Assembly (NCBI GenBank): GCA_025330725.1
Contig: JAIWND010000016.1
Coordinates: 496,001 to 560,000 of the forward strand
Origin: Chlamydoabsidia padenii
Taxonomy: Eukaryota; Mucoromycota; Mucoromycetes; Mucorales; Cunninghamellaceae
DNA length: 64,000 bases
Direction of reading: 5' to 3'
Part shown: positions 11,447 to 57,375 of the stretch, piece by piece
Numbering within the stretch: position 1 is the stretch's first letter
Layout of the letters: each line of letters starts with the position of its first letter
Program-made: the position numbers and the translations under genes
Notes under the pieces: model-generated
What the model was told of the DNA's origin: nothing
Databases searched by the model: none
The model's input: the letters and a program-made list of their open reading frames with translations, nothing else

Positions 11447-12652
11447 ATGAACACCAACGACACCGACATTCAGGAACGAATTGCAGCAGCACGTCGTGAA
11501 GCCGAAGCGCTCAAAGAGCGTATCAAACAACGAAAAGAAGCACTAGCCGATTCAACCTGTAAAGACTATACACCTTGAAAACAAACTTGGAATAAATGAA
11601 TGAATAAATACTAACACTTAAAAGCAATGTCTGATATATAGTACAAGAAATGACCAAAGACGTTGAAACCTTACCGCGGATTGTGATGAAGGCACGACGA
11701 ACACTTAAAGGACATTTGGCCAAGATCTACTCGATGCACTGGGCCCAAGATAAACGACACCTTGTCTCTGCTTCACAAGATGGTAAACTAATTGTCTGGG
11801 ATGCCTATTCTTCCAACAAGGTCCATGCTATTCCTTTACGATCGTCTTGGGTGATGACGTGTGCCTATGCTCCTTCTGGGAGTTTCGTCGCTTGTGGTGG
11901 TCTGGATAACATTTGCTCCATTTACAACCTCCGTGGACGTGACGGACCGATGCGACCTCAACGTGAATTGTCTGCTCATACTGGGTATCTCAGCTGTTGT
12001 CGATTTATCAACGATCGCCAAATCTTGACTGCTTCAGGGGATATGTCTTGTATGCTCTGGGATATTGATGCTGGGGTGAAAACTGAAGAATTTACGGATC
12101 ATACTGGGGATGTGATGAGGTAAGTTCAAAAGAGAAAGAAAACTCCCCCCCCCATCTTGCCCATTTTTACTCTTTCTTTTTATCTATTTGAATAGTCTCT
12201 CATTAGGACCGAATCCCAATATATTTGTCACTGGTGCATGCGATGCAACAGCCAAAGTATGGGATATACGAACAAAAAAGTGCGTACAAACCTTTGTTGG
12301 CCATGAATCGGATATCAATGCCGTCCAATTCTTCCCTAATGGTGATGCCTTTGCTACAGGATCGGATGATGCCAGTTGTCGATTGTTTGATCTTCGTGCG
12401 GATTGTGAATTAAGTACTTATTCCAGTGAAGCGGTGCTGTGTGGTATCACATCCATTGGATTCTCGGTGTCTGGTCGTCTTTTGTTTGGTGGCTACGATG
12501 ATTGTAATTGTCACGTGTGGGATACTCTCAAAGGTGAACGGTTGGGTACTTTATCTGCTCATGATAATCGTGTGTCTTGTCTTGGGGTGGCCACGGATGG
12601 CATGGCGCTTTGTACTGGTAGTTGGGACTCCACATTGAAAATCTGGGCATAG
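11447..12652 (+). CDS. Heterotrimeric G-protein beta subunit
   Basis: Three exons (11447-11558, 11642-12119, 12196-12652) giving 348 residues, the usual family length. It pairs with G gamma and binds G alpha at the plasma membrane to relay receptor signals. Residues 1-40 form the expected N-terminal coiled-coil helix ([17 protein letters not shown]). Then come the [13 protein letters not shown] signature and seven WD repeats with typical closing pairs (IVWDAY, IYNLRG, MLWDID, KVWDIR, RLFDLR, HVWDTL, LKIWA). The frame ends at W-A, as in nearly all G beta proteins. No lesions. Such subunits commonly serve mating and nutrient signalling in fungi; which pathway is served here cannot be read from sequence. 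Confidence 0.96.
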
Positions 12653-26026: not shown

Positions 26027-29000
26027 TCAAGGAGCCACACGCTTGAGCTTGGTAACATAGGCATGTAAAGAGGTTCGATTGCTGCTGTTGTCTGATATAT
26101 CATCCTTTTCTTCTGTCGATGATTCCATTTGTTGTGTTCGTTTCGCTAGTTCCATATCCCGATAAAGACATTCCACAGCTGTCTTGGTGCCATTTTCTTG
26201 TCGAATCGCTTCACCCAGTAGCCGAGCTTTGCTTATCATTGCTTGGTTTTGTGTGATTGTCAGCAGGTGATCTTTTAGCTTGGCTTTGGTCAACTTTGGC
26301 ATACAAATACCTACACCCTGCGCTTCGATTCGTTGCGCCCAAAACCTCTGGTCACCAAAGAAGGGTTTAATAACAGTTGGTAATCCAGCGCGAAGACCTA
26401 GTTCATCGAGAGTAAGTATGTTAAATTGAATTCCCGCCCCCCCTTCAATCCTTACCAGCTGCACATGTCCCTGCGCCACCATGGTGAACAACACCTTGTA
26501 TCAATGGGAATAACCAATCATGAGGGACAGAATCCAAGCTGAGAATCACGTCAGGGTGTTCTTGTAAAATGTGTGATGATCGGGCCTTTCCTTGTTGCTG
26601 ATTGTCTTGATTCCTTGCGGACCACCCTTTACATACAATGGCACGCACACCTGCTTCCACCACAGCATCCACAATCACACGAGACATCGCATCAGGATCA
26701 GACACAATGATGGATCCAAAGCCAATATACACCACCGGTCGTACATCTTTCTTCTTATCCAATGGGTCATCCTCTAGTTGTAAAAAGGATAAGAGTTCTG
26801 GAGGTGGTTGCCAATAATCCCTTGTTGTGTCCACTTTGTGTTCGTCCAAAAACCAATAGCCAGTGCAATGGATATAATCAGGCCAGTCCTTGGGAATAGG
26901 TTGTATTAGAGATGAGAAGGAGTACAGGCAAGGGACCCGAGATAGTTCCAATCGTTCCAGCGATGTCGGAGCCAAACCAAGCTTTTCGCGCCGAAATCGG
27001 TTAATGGGTTTAGAGGTGCCGAGCCACATTGCCATATCAATTAGCGTGTAAGTCATGTCGTTGTAGATAGGTCCACCAGAGATGGTAGAAGATGCAAAAG
27101 GATGGGGGAATTTGGTGGTTCTGGTCCAAGGAAATGGCATTGATCGAAAATAGGGAATTTCTACAAGACAAATGAATGAGAAGGGGATGGTTATAACAAT
27201 TATATTCGAGTATTTACCTAGTTTTTCGGCGAAATGAATGCCCACCATGGCGCTTGGGCTTTCAATCAATACATCCGTCCCTTGGCACGCTTCCCAGGCT
27301 GTTTCTAGTAGAGTATCCAGCCAGGTATAAAACTGAGTGATTAAAAAGTATCTTGTTAATTCATCGCACATTTATCCTATTGTTTCATACTTACAAATTT
27401 GGACCCATTCTTGATAAAAGAGATTGATAAAAAATTGTTTTCGATACATAGTTTCATCAGATCCTCGGGATTACCACCAATAGACTTGAATTCAATACCA
27501 TGATTTTCGATCCATTGTTTGTATTCTTCGTGAGTAGCAATCCGGCAATGATGAGCACCATTCTTCTGTAGTTGTTTGCATAATGCAATATAAGGCTGCA
27601 CATCTCCTCGGGACCCAATAGTCAGGCAAGTGACGATCTTTGGCTTGGACGATCTGCGGTTTCGTGGCAAGTGGTGATCTGGTTTCGTCAAGCTTGTAAG
27701 TACAGGAGGTCCGCCTATCATAGATAAAAACAAAGCATTTAGATACGCCGCAAGTCTTCCCACTTACCATATTTGGACGGCGGAGTGACATGTACTGTTG
27801 CCATTTTCTTCTCAAGATGAGCATCCTTTGATTTGCGTCTTGAATGTGGAAGATGTCTATGAACATCATGATATGTGGCAAGAGGAGATAGTATATTAGT
27901 ACATAACTTGATAGCACACATTTTTTCTCATGTTACCTTTTGGATTCATCAGAGGCAAGTTGACAAATGGATTGTTTCGGTGACTTGAGAGACAACAAAG
28001 CCAAGCAGCTATCCCTCAATCGCAAGGATGAGAAATCAAACAGTATCTACAATAATCATGGATTAGTATCGCCAACATATCAATTTGTTTTTAGACATAT
28101 ACCTCTTCATTCATGTCCCTTGTGGTCACCCCAATATTATACAGAGAATAATAGCCATGCTTTTTCGGTGATCGGATGCTGGCAATGTCGTTGTAAGGAA
28201 TGATGATCTAAATAAGTAAGATGCATATTAGGATGATGTTCAATACTTAGAGTATTCTTTTCATATTACTTTTTGATGACCCGCCAAAATGTTGGCATGG
28301 AAACATGCAAAATCCTGCGTAAAGTAGAGTCGCCCATAATAAGGAAGTATTCTCCATAGAGTTGCTTTGTAAACTATCAAGATAAAGAGATTTAATATTC
28401 ACATCGTGTTTTTTTTTTTGCTGCCGTGTTACCTGCAATCACGTCTTTGTTTGTACCAAGCATTGGGAAATACCTTTGCAATTGTTCTTGTAAAGTCGAC
28501 TGATATTGTTCCTCCATATCATCAGTTTCCGTATCACCAGATGACGGTGACCCAATGGCCGCATCCACTTGTCCCCGTAATCCACTACATATCCACATGG
28601 GTACCGAAGATAGATCGTCCTTCTTCCTTGGATTTGTTTGTTGATCCATGTCTTTATGTCGATTAAGAGTAAGTGATGATGTGAGTTGTGATAAATGAGG
28701 AGTTACCACTGGAATCGATAGATGTTTTACTGCCGATGATGATGTGGCACCAGTGTGTGTCTGTTTTAGTGAAGGAGTGACGGGTAAAGATGTCGCTCTG
28801 GACGCCAGTTGTTGTAAAGGTTTAGTTGCAAGGTGCTTGATGGCTTTAAACGACCCGCTTCGATTTCGTCTAGATGGTTTTTCAATACCGCGTCGTTCAG
28901 CGTCTGGTGCTAAAGATGCTGTCGGTGATGTACCCATATTATTTGCTCGTTGTTCCAATGGTTTGGATGGGATATGAGTGCCACTACTATCATGTATGAT

Positions 29001-40526: not shown

Positions 40527-41561
40527 TTAGTATGGAATAGGATGCTGATTGTGATGTTGAGAAGGATGGGTATTACTGGGTGTAGACGAGTCACATTCCG
40601 ACTGTGGAACCTCTGTGGTGGTGGGTGATGATGAGAGTGGTGGAGACGGCTGACCAGGTGTTGACTCATGGGGTCGTTTGAATCCAGTGATTTTATTAGG
40701 TGGCGAAGATCCGATGCGAGGAAGCTTGGTCGATCCCGATCGAAGGGAAGAGGTGGGTGCCACTGGAGACGAAGCAAACCGTGGGGATGCTGGCGCAGTC
40801 GCAAACGTGTCCATGTGCAAAGGCGGTAATCGTAAATGGTCAGATTCATTATCACTACTGTTGGTTCGTGCCGCCCTCCTCCGGTAACCCATATCAATCG
40901 TTTCACTTTTTTCCAAAAGCAATTGCAGAATCCTTTCAATGGCAGCCAGACGTTCTTCGATAGCCACTATCGTAGGCACATTTAATCGTGCTTGTTCTCG
41001 ATGTTGTTGTTTCAGATGCTTGTGATAGTGTTCTTGTTCTTGTTGTTTTCCTTGTTCTTTTGCTTGTTGGTCGTCTTGGTCCTCTTCTTGGTCGTCCTGA
41101 TCTTCTTGTTCTTGTTGTGGTTGATAATGGAGATGGTGAAGGTAGGGTTCTTCAGGTGTCGAGGATGAGCCTGAATGAGGTGGTGTTGGTTGAGGTACAT
41201 GGTGAGAAAAAGAATGTCGAGATAAACCAGCAGAGTATAAAGGTCGAGGTGTTATGGTCGAAGAGAAAGAAGAGCGCATACTTCCAATATTGGGTAAACC
41301 CGGAGTAGAGTGATGGTGTTTCTCTACTTGTTGGTCCTGTTTTATCATTCGAGAAGGAGGATAGGTGCTGGTATTGTTCTTTAATGTCGTTTTCGAGGCG
41401 ACATAACGACATTCCACTTTGGCTTTAATGCAACTGGCACAAGGCTGTGCTCCATCACATTTAGTTTTCCGTCTTCGGCATTCGGCACAGGCACTTGGTA
41501 CTTTGAGTCGTTTACGTCTAAAGACATCATCGGCAGGAGTTAGGTCAAATTGAGGAAACAT
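40527..41561 (-). CDS. Zn2Cys6 transcription factor
   Basis: Single exon, 344 residues. The frame continues upstream through a Phe-rich stretch read from a polypyrimidine leader; the ATG at 41561 is the sensible start. The binuclear cluster is Cys25-x2-Cys28-x6-Cys35-x5-Cys41-x2-Cys44-x6-Cys51 with the basic loop RRRKTK. A Gln/Glu-rich stretch and a helix (VAIEERLAAIERILQLLLEKS), probably for dimerisation, follow. The rest is Ser/Pro-rich, with no middle homology region visible, so it is shorter than most of its class. Target genes unknown. Confidence 0.9.
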   Translation of the reverse strand: MFPQFDLTPADDVFRRKRLKVPSACAECRRRKTKCDGAQPCASCIKAKVECRYVASKTTLKNNTSTYPPSRMIKQDQQVEKHHHSTPGLPNIGSMRSSFSSTITPRPLYSAGLSRHSFSHHVPQPTPPHSGSSSTPEEPYLHHLHYQPQQEQEDQDDQEEDQDDQQAKEQGKQQEQEHYHKHLKQQHREQARLNVPTIVAIEERLAAIERILQLLLEKSETIDMGYRRRAARTNSSDNESDHLRLPPLHMDTFATAPASPRFASSPVAPTSSLRSGSTKLPRIGSSPPNKITGFKRPHESTPGQPSPPLSSSPTTTEVPQSECDSSTPSNTHPSQHHNQHPIPY

Positions 41562-43010
41562 TGATAATAAAAGAAGGAAGAAGAAGAAGAAGAAGAAAAA
41601 GAAAAAGGGAAAAAAAGGAAAAGAAAAAAAAAAAGACAACGCGGTCATTCAAAATAAAATAAAAGGGCTTACTCGTGCAATAGTGGTTACCCAAAGAAAA
41701 ACAAGGTTTATCTTTTGATGTCATGATTCATCTCTTTTTTTTTTTTTAGTTGTTTCGCTTTTTTTTTTTTTTTTTTTTTTTTCATTCATTCTAGTATACC
41801 TCATTCCCATGATGATGATCCCTGGGGGTTTCCACAGTGTTCATATCAGGTGTTCAGGTTACGGTCCCGGATGTGGCGGAAAAAAAAACCGTGTGTCATC
41901 TCGGAAATGGGCTGGTCCTACCTACTTATCCTCTGTTATGGGATTCATATGATTCGTCGAGCCTCCTTCCGTTCGCAACACCTTGTGTCACCAGCACCTA
42001 TCCCGGAGACTCCGGGCAAAAGGCACTTTCTACCTTATTCAGTCGGCATTTCAATCGGGGTGAGAAAGGGTTACTTTTGACCAAGTCCTTTCCCTCTCTT
42101 TTTTTTATTCTTACAGCTTGCTATTTACCTTTCGACCACATACCACCAACTCCTTTGATACATGTAGTAGCCAAAGAATGGACTCTAGCAAACAATGATT
42201 TCATGTGGGGGGGGGAATGAATTCAAAAGACAAGAAACGTAGATCTATCTCCTAAACCTTGATGGCGTCAGCAATTGGTGTTTTTTTTAATAAAAAAAAC
42301 TTTGGCTCCAATACCTCTCTCCACTTTATACAATAGATCCCCCTTAAAAATAGTACAACTCTTCAATACCTATTATACCAATAAAATGAATGCTTGTTTT
42401 ATTTCTTAAAACGTACTTTTGTGGTCTTATCCTTGTTGGCCTTCAATACGGGGTTTGAATTTCGCAAAAAGAATTATGCAGATTACCTCTTGCCTTGTCT
42501 AAATACAAAGACTCACTCAAACGATGCTAAAAGCCGCCATGATGGGATGTGTATACATGTCAAATCAACTTTTGCTTATGAAGCCATGCACTCCCCCTGT
42601 GTCAGTGCCATGCGCTCAATCCGAAACTCCGGGATCCGACATTCACACCCCGCCTTTTCTCTTTGACCCTATTGTAATGATATACTAAAATCTAAACAAA
42701 TTAATAAGAAGACAATCCATTACATTTAAATCATTCCTATGTTTTATTTATTCGTTGCCATTAAAGTGTACTAGTAAAAAATAAATAACAAGTAGAGATA
42801 CAAATGTTGTGTGGTATATGGGGGATGTAACGAGTAAAGAAAAAAAAAAAAAAAGAAGAATGAAGGAATGGATAAAACGGTATATGGATAAGTAAGTGTA
42901 AACATATATATATATATATGTGTGTAATATGAGCATGAGTATGTGGTTTTAAAACAAAAGGGGGACTAGCTACCATTACCAAGGTGAGAGTGAAGGACTA
43001 AATGTCGTTT
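41562..43010. other. Intergenic, 1.4 kb
   Basis: No supported gene. It includes poly-pyrimidine tracts (41735-41785), a motif copy ACGGGGTTTGAA at 42448-42459 and a TA microsatellite near 42905. A 127-codon frame (41837-42220) has no recognisable features. Confidence 0.5.
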
Positions 43011-47746: not shown

Positions 47747-50700
47747 CTACGTGAGATCATTGGTTGGTGTTTCTTGTCTATCAGGTTGATCTTGCCATTG
47801 TTGGTCTGGTTGTAGCATGGCCAAAGTTTGGGTATAGGTGTGAATCGCCGCCTCCAGTTCTTCTTTTCGTACAGGTTTGCTGACATAATCATTCATTCCT
47901 AACGTACAAAGGAGAAGGGGAGGAGATTAGTAAATTAGGTTTTGGAAACCTTTGCCTTTTTTTTTTTTTTTTTTTGTTCTTACCGACTTCAATACACTTT
48001 TCGCGATCACCAGACATTACACAAGCAGTCATGGCAATGATATAAGGCTTCAGAGAAGAATCTGACAGTTCCTGACGAATGATATGACTAGCTTCAAGAC
48101 CATTCATTCTGGGCATCCATATATCCATAAAGACCAGATCGATCGGGTCTGAAGTGCGAGCGTTTCGGATGATATCACACGCCTCCTTTCCATCGTTCGC
48201 CACTTTGCATGACAAACCCATACGGCCAAGCATTCGAGACAGCACCTTTTGATTCACCGGGTTGTCATCGACTAGGAGCGCATTGATGTTGGCCAAAGAG
48301 TCATCCGTCGATCTGTTCCTGTCGGTCGGAGATGAGCATGGTGAGACGTAGGATGGCGCCAGGGTACTTGTTTGAGAGATGTTGGATGAAGTTGTCGAGA
48401 ATTTCCGATCGTTGTATGAATCATCCGTGCTCTTGTTGGCTGAAGATCGACGACGGTTAGATTCATTGGAAGAAGTAAAAGATAGGCGCTGGTGGCGGTG
48501 ATGTTGATAGGCATTGTTGGTTGGAATTGGAGCCATCAAGGTGTCGGTATCACTACGAGGATCTGTCATTTGGTGTAGAACGGAGAAGAGCGTAGAGTTC
48601 TTGAAAGGCTTGGTAATGATGGCTGGTATTTGACAAATGTGATGGTTTTGGAAAGGATCGACAGTTGTTGGAGTATCGGTCGGTTCGGACACTAGTTCGT
48701 TATGAGTGACAAGGAGAGGACTTTCCGTCGTGGTGTTGTTCTCCTGGGATCGTTTCAGTCGTATATCATTGACACATAGTGTTGGAATGGTGGCGAGTCT
48801 TGGATGCTGCTTTCGAAGATAGGTCACCGCATCGTCACTTGAAGTTATTCCCATGTCCAGTTTTTCCAAATCCATAAAATCCACATCTACAATCAGCAAA
48901 TTGGGCTTTGCTTGATTTGAGCCTTGATTAAAGTACTGGTCCGCTTCTGCAAAGGCTAAAACTTGTATAAACTTGAATCCAGCATTACCAAGAATACTTC
49001 TCCAAGCCTTTTGATTGTGTGATTTTTCGGTGATCACCATAGTCCCGCTACATGTCTTGGTCAGTTCTGCTAGTTTATGTTGTTCACCATATGTGCAAGT
49101 GTTGGGTTGTTTTTGAAGCATCACTTGGAAGGTAAATGTAGTACCTTCACCATATTTTGAAGTAAGCCACTAAAGCATAAAAAAAGTGGTTAGAATGAGT
49201 ATAGCTTCCCTGTTTATATTTCTTTCTTACAACGTCACCATGCATCAATCGACAAAGTTTACGTGATATAGATAAACCAAGTCCAGTACCACCAAAGTTT
49301 CTTGTGATCGAAGCATCCACTTGAGAGAAGGATTGGAAGAGGGTCTCAATCTTATCTTCTGGGATCCCAATTCCCGTATCACTGACAGACACCTTGATTG
49401 GGACAAAGTCTCCATCCAGGTGGTGGTAAGAGGTTGCTGATTCGTTGTTTTCATCGCCATTTGGTAGGTTGCCGTCTCTATTGTCTGGGATGATCAACTT
49501 GGGCAAGCTGGAGGCACCAACTTCAACGTGGACATGCACATTACCACCAGAATCTGTGAATTTAAATGAGTTGGAGAGGCTAATATAAAGAAGTAATGCT
49601 AATAAGTATCTTTGTTGTTTTCCTTTGCACGACAAACTTTGTAACTTACAAATTCAAAATAATTTGACGGAGTCTGATCAAATCCCCTATGATCTTGATA
49701 GGTACCTTTGGGTCGATTTCGATCCATAGTGCAATATCCTTTTGCATATAGTTTGATGCAACCAGTTTTACAGCGCTTTCCATCACAAATGTCTATTATA
49801 TAATATAATGGTTAGCATATATACCTCGTCATACATTAGTTCTTTATTTTTACTTACCAGATCCAAGGAATTTTGCTCCAAAGTGAGTTTCCCCGACTCA
49901 ATCTTCGAGTAGTCCAGTATATCATCAATGATGGCCATCAGGTGATTTCCAGAGGACTCGATGGTTTCAGCACAGTCATACAATTCTGCAGGTAGATCAC
50001 TTTCCATCAAGATACGAGACATACCAATAACCGCATTCATAGGAGTTCGGATTTCTATATAAAAATATCGTTCAGTAGGTGTCATTCTATTCATTTCAAA
50101 TATGGGGGAGGGGGTTTTCGAGTCATTACCGTGTGACATGTTGGCCAAAAAGTTTTGTTTTGCCGCTGCCGCTGCCTCCGCTGCCTCTTTGGACTTTTTG
50201 AGATCTACAAGGTAGATAATCACATAAGAGATCAGAATTTTTCTTTATCTTTTTTTTTTTTTTTCCTTACTTACCTTTCAACAAGTTTTGCGTCCTGCCT
50301 CGTTCTTCCTCCAATTCCAAAGTCCGTTCCTGTAAGTTGGCCGTCCTATTGTACACCAAGTTCTCCATATCGTTTGCATATGTTTCAAGCTATAATATCA
50401 TAAAAGTTAAATTAATCCCACTTTTTTTTTTTTTTTTTTTTTTTATTGCAACTTCAATAACATCAAAGTCTTACCAAAGAAGCCAGATTGTCCACTACAT
50501 TTTCGGAGCTTGCCATGGATGGGTCAATTGCCTTCATGTGTTTCTAATGGATATATGTATACAAGTAATCAGTTGAATGAATCAAGTTTTCTGGGTAATA
50601 TAGTCACTTACTATTAAATCACTGGTTTGTGGTCTGTCATCAGGATCGACAGCCCAGCATCTTGTGATCAGTCGATTGACTTGGTAATAGTAGCCATCTC

Positions 50701-53700
50701 GATCGTTGTCAGCCAGTATTGGAGTAATATGTTCATGAATAATCTGGTGGAAGATGTCATCAGGACCACCGCCTTCTTTTGCCAATTCGTTATACGGCTC
50801 TGTCCTAGACAATATTTGATTCATTACCACACCGACACTAAAAAAAAAACAACCACCACCCAACGATGATGAGAAAGTGTCCACATATTAAAAGTCAAAT
50901 GTAGATTTTACCTATATATGTCCGCCTTTTTCGATGGGAAGGTAATTTTCAAATCCGTTGATAAATTAACAACCGATTCAGGGGCCAACCACAGTAAGAT
51001 GTTCTTGTGAGGGATGATGATAGAGGGAAGATCAGGGTATTGTTTTTGAATAAAGTTGGTCACCGAGGAATCATATTGAACTTGATGCATCTTTTGTAAA
51101 CCATAATCAGTGACCTTCAGTTCCCAGCGGCCGGTAATAATGCAAGAGGCAGTTGTAAGTAGTCCATGTGTTTCAATTTTCGATTGGTGTATAAAGTGAA
51201 TCCCTTTTAACAAGTCGTTGATCAAAGAGCATCTGAAGATCCAAGTCAGATCTATGTCGGGGTTTTCCAGTATCTTGTCCAAAGGTCCTTTGCGGCAATA
51301 TTCTACGAGATACAAGTATATTAGGTATTTTATTAGCATCATCCATATATGATCCTTTTCTATACCCAACATAAAAGCAGGGAGTTGAATACACTCACAT
51401 ACCTTCCACTATATATGTGCCATGAGATTCAATACATACACCAATAAATTCGACCAAATTATGATGTCGTTGTTGTTTGAGTATCGCGATTTCCCTCTTC
51501 ATATCTTCATCGAGCCGTAATGATTTGAAGCCAATTTGCTTGATGCACACGAGAAGGTTCCGGCTAGAATAATAATAATAATAATAAAGTAAAATGTGAA
51601 TTGATGGTTCATCATGTTTCATGCTGATTTTTCTATTTACTTACTGTCGTCCAATGGAGTTATGCATTTGCTTGATTGTTGGTGAGCCTGTTTGCATTCT
51701 AAAAGGAAGACCATTGAGTTTAGCGGTCTTTTTTTTTTTTTTTGTTTTGTTTTACCTATACTTTCTTACCTAGAATGTTCATCTAGATCCAAGTTGATGG
51801 ATTTTTCATAGCCCATAGCCCAGTGAGCGCTGTTTGTTTCGGTATCTGGCGTCTTGACACTCTGCTCTTCAAACTTGTCGTTGTATTGTTGATTGATGAT
51901 GTTTGCTAAATGATAAGTGTCACTGACGTTGCAATTGTTGTTATTGTTTATGCTGTCACCAATGAGATCGGTATTGTCGACAGTGGCATTATGTGATTTC
52001 GATAATAAGGGTGTACTTGTCGGACTATGCCCACGTGACGGTATTTCTGTAGTCAAAAGCTGGGTATCGTATTGATCGTCTGTTCGTTCGTTCTCCATGG
52101 ATGGACGGGGTTTTCGTGTTAGAGAGTCGTAAGATAGTAGCCAAGAATCTTCTTCACCAGGATCAAGACCATCTTTATGTTCCTTGAATCGTTTACGCAG
52201 GTAATAGCATAGCCATGCAAACAACACAAGTAGAAGCACCAACACGATGGGAAGGACAATGGATAGGATTTTTCGAGTTCTTCGATATTTTTCATGTTGA
52301 ATGTAGGTAGCACATAGAGTAGATTTGACCGCATCAGGATCATAGCATGAAATACAAGAGGTAGAGTCCATGTTTGCGATGGTTCCATTCTGGCAGGGTA
52401 GACATTCATTTTGGTCCTCCATGGCACTGTAATGATTGAATGGACAGGGTCTACATTGGATTGATGATCTTGCAAGCCCAGATTTATCCAAACAGTATGA
52501 AGATCGAGCCAAGGCCAAGTAGTAGGTACCAGGTGGACAAATATGAGTCAAGAGATAGGGCCGGACTTGAGTATTTTCCCAAGGCAGTTCGTCAAGTGTT
52601 TCTGATATAAAGAGATCAAGCACGGTCAAAAACCCTACGGCAAATGTATTCAATGACCTACAGATAAATGAAAAGGTGAGCAAAGTGATTGAGATCAAGT
52701 GAATTTAGCCCTATTGTTGTCTTACCATGAAGTGTTGAGGCGTAGATCGATTAAAGCTTGTTTTTCATCAAATCGATCTGCTGCGCTATATAAAGACACC
52801 CTGGACGGCGTGTAATTTTGAAGGTATCGCTAATACATCAAGTACAAAAAAAAAAAAAAAAAAAAAAAAAAAGTGGGAGGGGGGAGAAAGAGAATTAGCA
52901 AACATACTTCTTGATTCCATTTTTTTTTCCCGGTATTACCATGTTGACAGAGTCAAAAATGTATTCCGAGAAGGTAAAGATGCCATCCACTGTTCGATTC
53001 TGCCTGTGTAGATCGTCCAAAATCACGGAAAGTTGTCTTCCCACACTACCTTGACTATCGACATTGATGAGATGCACCATTTCATTTTCAGCAGGGATAG
53101 GAGACAACGATAGATCTTTATATTGTTGATATAGCATATTGCATAAATAGTTATCCACCATGACGCGCCTTTCCGAGAAGCATATAGGAGCCATGATTCC
53201 ATCAGCAATGGCGTTTTGAGCAGCCGAACGAGACAGGTATTCAAAGTCAATGTTGATTTGGACAGTCGATCTATTAATTAAGATAACAAAATAGCCAGTA
53301 ATAGTGAGTATATTTCTCTGCATGATAATCGAATACGCCATTTCTTTTTGTTCACTTACTTTGGATAGGTAGTATTCAAATGTCCAACATAATCCAGTCC
53401 AAGTGCGGCCAATGAAATATTTTTTGAAGCTGCAGAATTTACTACCTGTCTAAGCACGCTGTCATCATTCCCCACAAGGACGATCGGGGTGTTGTTATGA
53501 TTTATTAGATCGTTGAATGCCGAGAGAATCGATGGAGGATAACCTAATACAGTAGAGAAAGAAGCGTTTATTATATTTGCATCAAACATCTATTCCCAGT
53601 TTGTTTTGTTTGACTTACCGATAAAATCATTCTACATACAAAAGTGATATGATAAAAACAACATTGAGTAAACAACATAGCCTTGTATCAAATCAAATGT

Positions 53701-55114
53701 TTACCTGAATAGCATCGATAATTGTCCATCCAAGCTTGTTTGACAACTGATTCATTCCAGCCAATACGTTTCGACCATAAGTATCACCTTCAGCATTTGG
53801 AATCAGTGCACCAACAGTAGATATATCAGATTTAACAGTAAGGGGTCGTTTTTCAATGTATCCAATAAATCGTTTGACAGTTTCACTTGTGACAAGATAT
53901 GGACCAGTGGAAATAGTTTGATTACCAAATATACTATGTCCTGTAATAGCCTATTTTAAATAGAGTGGTGTTTAATATTATAGATCTATATGAATCGTCC
54001 ACCTTACCTCCAAGTAAATGTAAAAAAGTGGAAGAGCAGCTTGATAATAAGGTAGTTGGTCGATAGCAAAAGTCGATTGAGGGCGAGTTTCGAATAAAGT
54101 CGTCATGTTTTGTCCACCAAAGTCAATCAGAATGGTGTCAAACCGTCGTTGAGGTTGTTGAGAGTTGATGGTAATGGCCGTGTTAATAACCAAATCAGAA
54201 GAAGTCTACCCCACATCAACGAAAAGGACAATTAGTAGCCAGTCAATGATTATAAACACTATATTTACCATTCCACCAAGAGAGACCAGAGAATCAAACT
54301 GACCAGATAAAAAGTACTCTTGTACTCTTTTCAAGGTGGTACTGGAACTGTCGGTAGGTCGTAAAAGTGTCACTTGAGACCCATTAGGATGTAACGTCTT
54401 TGTAATAGCATCCAGGCGTGCATAAGTTTCATTGACAAGGTTTTCTATATGAGAGATCGCCAAAGGTTTGTTATATCCATCTTTTATTAATTGTTGAGCC
54501 ACCATGACGCCGACATCCCAGTCAGACTGAAGCACCCGTGTCAGTCCCAACTGATAAGAGTAATGTTCACCCGTATCGTACACAACCACAGGGACGCCTT
54601 TTGATTTGGCATACTTGACCGCTTCGTATACTTCGTCATCAGGGATCGTGGTGATAATGCCGTCTACACCCTTTTTGATAAAAATAGGAGGAAGAAAAAG
54701 TATGAGAATTAAAAAAATTAAATAGCGGGATCTGAAACCCACAGACATGAATGAATCTTACATTATCAACTGCTTCGTGGATATCATGCACCATTTGAGT
54801 TCGACCACCACTCCGATGATTCCAGTTTATCTCCACACCCTATAAAAAGATACATAATGTTAAAAGAGGTTGTTGTATTGTCTTTAGTAGCGATCTTTGA
54901 GAAGACCTACCAAAAGGGTGGCAGCATCCAACGCCCCACTACCTGGATTACCGTAAAATTTGTTATAGCTTGAATCGTGAGTGAATACGGAAAAAGTCGG
55001 TTTGGAAAAATTGGCGAGATCAGGATCACAAAGGGGTAGTATTGAGGGTTCTGGGACTGATGATCCCATCCTAAAGGTCATAAAGAAACAAAGACATGCT
55101 AATACAATGAGCAT
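47747..55114 (-). CDS. Receptor hybrid histidine kinase with guanylyl-cyclase-like pseudokinase
   Basis: Twenty-two exons, 55114 down to 47747: 54911-55114, 54762-54839, 54269-54670, 54008-54205, 53705-53950, 53619-53631, 53360-53543, 52940-53270, 52726-52829, 51770-52657, 51645-51698, 51403-51563, 50912-51302, 50612-50837, 50475-50543, 50275-50389, 50130-50204, 49858-50054, 49650-49792, 49231-49579, 47984-49169, 47747-47898. All phases join (1921 residues). Order: signal peptide (1-19); two sugar-binding-protein-like domains (about 25-335 and 340-620); Cys-rich stalk (627-705); membrane helix (717-741); pseudokinase (about 900-1160) with Lys909, HG in place of HRD at 1000 and TDYG at 1019, as in animal receptor guanylyl cyclases; signalling helix [15 protein letters not shown]; HisKA with His1246; HATPase ([21 protein letters not shown]); degenerate receiver; intact receiver (DD pair, Asp1825, Lys in SKPV). 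Likely senses a small ligand and signals by phosphorelay. Confidence 0.93.
53619..53631 (-). other. 13-nt micro-exon of the receptor kinase
   Basis: AATGATTTTATCG is flanked by TATGTAG and GTAAGT and is needed to keep frame between its neighbours. Skipping it would shift the frame in the second ligand-binding domain. Confidence 0.7.
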
Positions 55115-55544: not shown

Positions 55545-56141
55545 CTAAAGAGGGGATGAAGGAGTTGAAGGGGATTGCTTTTTTCGGATCATACTGCCTA
55601 TTTTGAAAGACCGCACTTCGCATTCACGCCAATTTCTCTGATGTTGTTGATGATGACCTAGATCTTGTGCGACTGATTTCCATGCGTGTTTAAATAGCTT
55701 GGCATGTTTTTTGATGGCTAACAATAAAAGCCGATCTTCAGGGTCTGACCATTCTTTGTGTTCCAATGCTTTTGCTTGAAGTGTTTTGAATCGACCCCAA
55801 CAACAACCACGTGATCGGTGAGGTAAATAAGTGGAGGATATCATTGCCCATGATAAACCTTGCTGGTATCCTTTTTGTAATAAAAAGTCTTCTTCGGATG
55901 ACCAAGGTGTGCGAGTTTGAGTGGTCAGTCGACGTTGAGGTTGATCCTGCTTTTGCTGTTGTATCATAAAAGGTGAAGTGGGAGGAGATACTAGGGTCGG
56001 AAATGGGGATGCATAACTTGAGATGGGACTAGAGGTCGCTGATGAGGCTGATGAGTAGCATGATTTGTAAGAATAGCCTTCGTGGTCGATTGTTATGACT
56101 TTCTCGGAAGTATGAGTGCAAAGTAAGTTTTTGATATCCAT
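55545..56141 (-). CDS. Myb/SANT-like DNA-binding protein
   Basis: Single exon, 198 residues, ATG at 56141. Residues 1-80 are Ser/Pro-rich. Two Myb-like repeats follow: TPWSSEEDFLLQKGYQQGL...WAMISSTYLPHRS...CWGRFKTL, then EWSDPEDRLLLLAIKKHAKLF...AWKSVAQDLGH...CEVRSFKI. The spaced tryptophans of each repeat are partly replaced (Trp-x-Trp pattern plus Phe/Tyr), as often in fungal Myb-like proteins. Likely a nuclear DNA-binding protein; targets unknown. The C-terminal tail is short and basic. Confidence 0.85.
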   Translation of the reverse strand: MDIKNLLCTHTSEKVITIDHEGYSYKSCYSSASSATSSPISSYASPFPTLVSPPTSPFMIQQQKQDQPQRRLTTQTRTPWSSEEDFLLQKGYQQGLSWAMISSTYLPHRSRGCCWGRFKTLQAKALEHKEWSDPEDRLLLLAIKKHAKLFKHAWKSVAQDLGHHQQHQRNWRECEVRSFKIGSMIRKKQSPSTPSSPL

Positions 56142-57375
56142 TGTTATTGCTGTAAAGTGAACTGATAAAGTAGGATAAGAGAAAAATAGGGGGAAAGACT
56201 AGATTGAAGATGATTTGAATGAAAGAAATGAAATGAAAAGATTGATCGACGTCCTTTTATATGTGTTTTTGTGTTACAGTTTTTTTTTTTTGTTAAAAAA
56301 AAAAGGCACGATTGTTTCTCCCGTGAAGAAGGAAAGGGGAAGCATGAGGAGCTCAACACGCCTTGAAGGAGAACAAATATTCCAAACAATGGTCACTTTA
56401 GTGTAAATCATTGTGGAATAAATGACAACATCACAAAAGGGAAAGGTGGACCCTCATGCATAATGAAATTACCTTTTTGGTAAATTCATGCAGATTTTCA
56501 AATTCCGTCAAACCAAGTTTCACTTTCCTTTTGTTCTTTTTATCTACTTGTTAATTCAACTCTCTTGGAGTAAATTAAACCAAGTTCTCCACATTCACCA
56601 ATTTGTACATCCAAGTTGATAAAAAAAGAAGAGGAGGCGAAAAAAAGACTTGAAATTATAGGGAGAGAGAAAGGAGAGAAAAGAAAAAGAACGAGGACCC
56701 TTTTACGATTTTTCATGTGCCGCTTTTAATCACGACTTTTGGTAATCGGTCAACCGAAAGTAAAAAAGACCCCTTCAGGGCAAAACCGATGAACAAAAAG
56801 AAGGGTACATATGTATCATGTCACAATCTATTTCCATTGACAGAAAACGAACTTTACTTTTTATATACAAGTTGGAAGATCATTATTCATTTTGTTGACA
56901 GTGCAAGTTTTACATTGATACCCCGGAAATCTCACTTTTTTGTTTTTTTTTGTTTTGTTTTGTTTAGTCATCATTTATATTCAGAAGCTTATAAAAACGT
57001 GGAAAGAGATCAAAGTTATGCAGGTGACTTTTTCATATGATATCAGTTAACGTGAAACCAGGGCATTTACACACGTTACTCAGTCGTGTGGCAGGGTTGT
57101 CTCATACTTAATAACATGACATAATGTAATGCTTTTCAAGACGAATCTGATGTAGATACAATCGTCACGACTGAAAGGGGAATCTCAAAAGGAGATATGT
57201 AATCATGAATGATCTTCTCGGTTTCAATACCCAAAAAGGATATCAACAAATGGGGTGAGTGGAAAAAAGGGGTCTGGCTGATAAACATGACAGATGAAAT
57301 TCAATTTATGGCCTGACTTTTGTAACGACTGCATGATCTTTTGCTGTTTTTGAAATGCAGATTCAGATCCCGCCT

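Follow-up and report, generated by a model that had tools for sequence, protein, structure and literature searches.

In this work, we analysed a window of 64,000 nucleotides from the genome of Chlamydoabsidia padenii (contig JAIWND010000016.1, positions 496,001 to 560,000; source assembly of 34.2 Mb in 95 contigs) and focused on one of its genes, which encodes a receptor of 1921 amino acids (aa), hereafter P0001. We propose, with a probability of about 0.78, that this protein belongs to an undescribed family of single-pass receptor histidine kinases of Mucorales and Mortierellales, in which the chassis, from the ectodomains through the stalk, membrane helix and pseudokinase to the signalling helix, is constructed like the one in animal receptor guanylyl cyclases (RGCs) and would drive a phosphorelay. 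At the sequence level, the receptor displays the domain order given in Table 1, a pseudokinase akin to that of RGCs, loss of kinase catalytic residues, and intact residues in both the histidine kinase and the second receiver. Although cyclase-like in its build up to the signalling helix, it is classified here by its output as a hybrid histidine kinase and not as an RGC, because the cyclase domain is absent: no guanylate cyclase domain (PF00211) was found in the Pfam scan of the protein, which was performed on two pieces.

The original prediction, made by reading the DNA, had proposed that a single gene of 22 phase-consistent exons joins tandem periplasmic-binding-protein (PBP)-like domains, a Cys-rich stalk, one membrane helix, an RGC-type pseudokinase (HG for HRD, TDYG for DFG, Lys909 preserved), the coiled signalling helix known from the front of cyclase domains and HisKA-HATPase-REC-REC. 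Most of this stood. An identical database protein and two collinear paralogues confirmed the gene; Pfam, profiles, conserved cysteines and hydropathy confirmed the ectodomains (the second being diverged), the stalk and the membrane helix; the alignment confirmed the kinase residues; sequence matches, a fungal profile and a tree agreed on the RGC type, and alignment with the atrial natriuretic peptide (ANP) receptor together with motif spacing on the helix. The output part had to be amended: HisKA, HATPase and the second REC domain are intact, and the first REC domain is degenerate in P0001. The accompanying interpretation, i.e. that a hybrid histidine kinase in place of the cyclase would link a bacterial-style sensor to a eukaryotic phosphorelay, is supported.

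Table 1. Features of the receptor gene, with positions in the window
Feature	Position	Strand	Evidence
Whole coding region, 22 exons, 1921 aa (P0001, BC941DRAFT_429688)	47747..55114	-	Splice model and identical database protein
First PBP domain, aa about 48-325, CUT2 sugar-binding type	53858..54973	-	
Second PBP domain, diverged, aa about 333-585	52731..53836	-	Pfam, four-member profile, strand/helix pattern
Cys-rich stalk, nine cysteines, C627-C702	52312..52539	-	Each cysteine in 41/41 aligned members
Single membrane helix, aa 717-735	52213..52269	-	Hydropathy
Pseudokinase domain, RGC type, aa about 901-1167	50523..51563	-	Pfam, sequence matches, tree, residue census
Signalling helix, aa about 1175-1222	50275..50501	-	ANP receptor alignment, spacing counts, helix in P0007 model
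HisKA / DHp domain, phospho-acceptor His1246	49891..50163	-	Pfam 3.4e-20; His1246 in 45/45
HATPase_c domain, aa about 1361-1494, one intron inside	49116..49579	-	Pfam 1.1e-26
Degenerate receiver, aa about 1518-1675	48573..49046	-	Read from sequence, no Pfam call
Intact receiver, aa about 1774-1890, phospho-acceptor Asp1825	47843..48278	-	Pfam PF00072

The kinase-like domain was recognised by Pfam as PK_Tyr_Ser-Thr (E-value 2.3e-27). Among solved structures, its best sequence match without the helix was the ANP receptor (3e-33), the best ordinary kinase reaching 2.5e-15; with the helix included, the values were 2.9e-41 for the ANP receptor, 1.7e-22 for GC-C and 1.9e-15 for RIPK2. A profile built from five fungal kinases scored 171.9 bits against the ANP receptor, 126.3 against GC-C and 94.5 against the next match. 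A homology search returned 118 matches among 6142 scored candidates, i.e. 95 fungal proteins, 23 animal RGCs and no ordinary kinase. We further constructed a tree from 19 fungal rows (20 were chosen among 118 and P0090, an oversized match, was dropped), 9 of the 26 animal matches plus NPR1 and GC-C, and RIPK2 together with the 10 kinase loci of the C. padenii genome, out of 20, that survived filtering. In this tree, the RGC domains of fungi and animals were joined, apart from the 11 kinases, with support 93/98. We consider the region from the pseudokinase through the signalling helix to be homologous to its counterpart in animal RGCs.

The search for the same domain order in related proteomes, which the original prediction had suggested, uncovered a fungal family: two homology searches combined yielded at least 118 relatives, which by genus fall in Mucorales and Mortierellales, assigned to two different phyla at NCBI, where four names including Chlamydoabsidia padenii (Mucorales) were looked up; the remaining genera are those we take to belong to these two groups. 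According to their Pfam lists, inspected by eye, all 118 carry a kinase family, 116 HisKA and 99 a PBP family. A guanylate cyclase domain is listed for none of them, as against 26/26 of the animal matches, and the three places with such domains that were found in the C. padenii genome all lie away from the receptor gene. In 11 of the 19 homologues without a PBP family, the membrane helix lies nearer to the start than in P0001 or none was found; these 11 may be cut annotations. The names RGC/RGC protein kinase, guanylate cyclase and gcy-13 have been attached to some members in databases, the last two of which misfit the domain content of these members. One member, P0082 (Mortierella sp. GBA30), carries extra PF00781 and PF19279 domains and is possibly a fused gene model. 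The next relatives after the fungal family are the animal receptor cyclases; no chytrid, plant or other non-animal eukaryote beyond Mucorales and Mortierellales was seen among the matches listed in these searches, which need shared 5-residue words and the first of which took the best 7992 candidates, so that absence elsewhere is not proven.

The stretch that directly follows the kinase aligns with the helix of the ANP receptor. Of the 80 fungal pattern matches, 73 show a spacing of 17 residues between an RT pair and the KT/RT..LL motif that follows, the second motif being unmatched in the other 7; in animals this spacing is 10 residues in 24/26 sequences counted by eye, and the other two could not be measured. 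The fungal helix is thus one heptad longer than that of these 24 animal proteins. Motif counting by regular expression missed most animal sequences; the first spacing pattern caught four of them, three being near-identical ant proteins, and it was a wider listing that gave the count of 24. Downstream, the H-box follows the RT threonine at a distance of 44 residues in 113 of the 115 members (of 118) in which this was measured. One of the two others has 58, an excess of two heptads, and the other 61, possibly owing to a faulty gene model. P0071 (Mortierella sp. GBAus27b) repeats the heptad ARTADLQ, adding 14 residues before the H-box, and represents a natural in-phase length variant. In an AF2 model of the homologue P0007 (a monomer of moderate confidence), a single helix is predicted over residues 320-408, so that the signalling helix and the DHp helix are continuous. 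Such a continuous helix fits the idea, in the available part of PMC1592074, of the signalling helix as a coupling element common to histidine kinases and cyclases. According to the same part of that paper, the helix occurs downstream of a kinase domain in animal receptor cyclases only and all fungal cases are Sln1p-like; the fungal family described here is an exception to both statements as they appear there.

One history of this module, which we hold to be less likely than not, is that the chassis predates animals and first drove a histidine kinase, and that animals later attached a guanylyl cyclase to this helix. The helix, its length varying by whole heptads from one output to the other, would then be a generic connector through which an allosteric pseudokinase can be coupled to exchangeable dimeric enzymes. 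It is also conceivable, though on the whole doubtful, that the pseudokinase and helix reached a fungal ancestor by transfer from an animal or an animal relative and were joined to an existing histidine kinase. The distribution of the matches, confined to Mucorales and Mortierellales and then jumping to animals, speaks for such a transfer; the fungal domains, however, form their own clade on a long stem, and the word-limited searches do not prove absence from other lineages.

Outside the membrane, Pfam detected Peripla_BP_4 (PF13407; 2.5e-16), and the first ectodomain matches the bacterial CUT2 sugar-binding proteins (4ru1 and relatives) both in sequence and in predicted fold. Those are transport proteins, whereas the receptor places PBP domains on a kinase chain. 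The second domain matches CUT2 proteins weakly in sequence. Scanned alone in four members, it had Peripla_BP_4 as its top family in all four, below the cut-off (6e-5 to 0.015; 0.0085 for P0001); the profile of the four matched only PBP/LacI-type solved structures (22/22 matches with E-values up to 1, best 2e-4), and a corresponding strand/helix pattern is seen at residues 367-651 of the predicted model of P0033. From the fold, by analogy, our best guess for the ligand class is a sugar or a cyclitol. A less probable alternative is that the ectodomains bind a peptide or serve only to dimerise. The strong divergence of the second domain would suit it, as would the fact that animal receptor cyclases bind peptides with the same general fold, and the identity at the 4ru1 ligand site was read from a single alignment.

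A mastigoneme protein was matched by the stalk profile at 1.1e-26 and the calcium-sensing receptor at 2.6e-4; ELAPOR1 and TNF and ephrin receptor repeats were matched as well, and the nine-cysteine family of Pfam stayed below the cut-off there (0.014). As in class C G protein-coupled receptors such as the calcium-sensing receptor, a flytrap-like domain is followed by a Cys-rich stalk, but the fungal receptor has one membrane helix instead of seven. The apparent kinship with the calcium-sensing receptor is not specific, because the mastigoneme match is far better and the other repeats match as well. Apart from a signal-like N-terminal stretch, the membrane helix is the sole strong hydrophobic helix of the protein. 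The linker that follows it (about aa 736-900) is of low complexity, and the equivalent part of a homologue's model is unfolded.

Inside the cell, what is conserved is the histidine-kinase output and not protein kinase chemistry, because none of the 45 aligned members (out of 118 fungal proteins) retains the VAIK lysine, HRD aspartate and DFG aspartate together, while the phospho-acceptor histidine is present in all 45 and the other output residues in 42-43 of them. In the census, N1363, D1427 and G1429 of the N-box/G1 region were found in 43/45 (the other two being gaps), as were D1777, D1778 and K1879 of the second receiver, with D1825 in 42/45 and gaps in the rest. P0001 itself has HGLL at 1000-1003 and TDYG at 1019-1022. 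The VAIK lysine is kept in 18 of the 21 rows from Mucorales, where two of the remaining three have a gap, and in 6 of the 24 from Mortierellales, as grouped by genus; the HRD aspartate in 0/21 and 15/24, respectively. It is very unlikely that the domain is nevertheless catalytically active and the protein a double kinase: Lys909, Glu925 and Asp1020 are present in P0001 and 15 of the 45 members have Asp at the HRD position, but in P0001 this residue is replaced by Leu, and the 15 members lack both the DFG aspartate and the lysine (14 with R,D,G and one with R,D,S). Pfam called Response_reg in one stretch only (1.5e-26); the first receiver has Thr-Glu at the acidic-pair site and keeps Asp1571 and Lys1663. 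At this site, a DD pair was observed in 23 of 24 Mortierellales rows and in none of the 19 Mucorales rows with letters there, and Mortierellales may thus retain an active first receiver. In the C. padenii genome, 2 HPt and 24 receiver matches were counted. In two further histidine kinase genes, L043 (C27:169308-171866) and L044 (C25:216549-214146), the HisKA exon corresponds to the stretch of the profile (12-66) that the receptor family's own HisKA exon matches; within the 10 kb examined around each, nothing matched the kinase or ectodomain part of P0001.

Several observations weigh against the proposed reading. The animal receptor cyclases form one clade at only 68/20, with one tyrosine-kinase-like kinase in the outgroup, and the tree program flagged long branches; the comparison with animal RGCs called for by the original prediction joined the two groups, as given above. 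That prediction had also named a structural placement with ordinary Ser/Thr kinases as evidence against it. In Foldseek, the kinase homology domain of GC-A was the first kinase-fold row (rank 14), but the VIA fold comparison scored RIPK2 (26.6) and BRAF (26.1) slightly above GC-A (25.1; root-mean-square deviation 5.8 Å over 287 residues). The RGC assignment is made by sequence and is not favoured by the fold on its own. One bacterial histidine kinase, P0037, for which Pfam lists no kinase domain, also matched the region (5.1e-7); it was excluded from the family counts. In the P0007 model, the helix region has a pLDDT of about 65-73, the pTM is 0.50, and both register and dimer lie outside the model. 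Finally, the ectodomain family (PF13407 or PF00532) differs from that of animal receptor cyclases (ANF_receptor, PF01094), only the general fold being common, and the ectodomain homology search, with 4 matches among the best 7992 candidates, was uninformative on occurrence elsewhere. An alternative is that the domain is an ordinary tyrosine-kinase-like kinase that lost residues independently and resembles RGCs only superficially. We judge this highly improbable: the ANP receptor leads the best ordinary kinase by 58 bits (77 bits with the fungal profile), and adding the signalling helix raises its score from 118.7 to 145 bits (+26) with no gain for RIPK2.

The receptor gene starts with an ATG at 55114, and its stop codon, the only one in frame, ends at 47747. 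Its introns, modelled from splice signals and reading frame, are all GT-AG and 57-110 bp long, and one of them interrupts the coding sequence of the H-box. A protein search showed this splice model to equal the database protein at every residue. The plan is not a product of chance, because its full length recurs in the same order at two paralogous loci of this genome, C47 (aa 27-1915 of P0001) and C1 (aa 18-1895). Database annotations of these paralogues are short, P0002 (C47) at start and end and P0018 (C1) at the start, and the genome carries the remainder in order. The three places of the genome with Peripla_BP_4, the third slightly below the Pfam cut-off, are these receptor loci. A fusion of two or more adjacent genes (a receptor and a histidine kinase) in the model, for which one could cite the stretch of about 165 aa that separates the kinase from the membrane helix, is scarcely credible against phase-consistent exons, an identical annotation, two paralogues in the same order along nearly their entire length and homologues that list these domains on one protein.

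Four other features of the window were noted by eye. An open frame immediately upstream of the receptor gene (55545-56198, minus strand) has two tryptophan-rich SANT/Myb-like stretches; a WD40 exon (12119-12652, plus strand) resembles a heterotrimeric G protein beta subunit; and open frames on the minus strand resemble a sterol glucosyltransferase (26445-27371) and a Zn2Cys6-type transcription factor (40527-41648).

With animal RGCs (NPR1/GC-A, GC-C, retinal GCs, Gyc76C), the receptor shares a PBP-fold outside, an HG and DYG pseudokinase and a signalling helix right after it. Animal RGCs have one membrane helix, as has the fungal receptor. They differ from the fungal family in the cyclase domain, which it lacks, in ANF_receptor instead of tandem Peripla_BP_4 and in the extra heptad. 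Like fungal hybrid histidine kinases of the Sln1p type and others, the receptor carries HisKA-HATPase-REC on one chain with phospho-acceptors present, but it has in addition PBP ectodomains and, from the membrane to the signalling helix, an intervening pseudokinase. A PBP ectodomain outside and a histidine kinase inside are also found in hybrid two-component sugar sensors of bacteria such as Bacteroides BT1754, which lack the pseudokinase and have a prokaryotic output. That no protein with this plan has been described, as first supposed, agrees with our searches of the open-access literature, which found none. Sln1p likewise has a signalling helix ahead of HisKA, according to the available part of PMC1592074. 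For early-diverging fungal histidine kinases, the accessible text of PMC5285503 reports 16 groups and unprecedented forms with membrane helices and names no such domains; the portions available of PMC6944256, PMC8510515, PMC4133162 and PMC10386755 do not mention the plan. RGC kinases are given as absent from 30 surveyed fungal proteomes in the part seen of PMC2838846, and the RGC group as mainly metazoan in that of PMC8449880.

We envisage the receptor as a dimer in which a small molecule, probably sugar- or cyclitol-like, would close the flytrap binding domain outside. The stalk and membrane helix would carry the change to the pseudokinase, acting as an allosteric relay and perhaps still binding nucleotide in the lysine-keeping Mucorales members. 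The coiled helix would then turn or shift and set the DHp bundle to kinase or phosphatase, switching autophosphorylation of His1246, from which phosphate would pass to Asp1825, an HPt protein and response regulators. A regulatory role is probable for the first receiver.

An RGC receptor module hitherto regarded as peculiar to animals thus also occurs in fungi, where its output differs. Because this large fungal family combines the pseudokinase and helix with another enzyme, it allows the origin of receptor cyclases to be tested, and it amounts to a natural swap experiment on the passage of a pseudokinase signal through a coiled coil; if the chassis is indeed older than animals, nature has already carried out the output swap. 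For Mucorales and Mortierellales, the family would add a class of cell-surface sensors whose ligands are possibly sugars or cyclitols.

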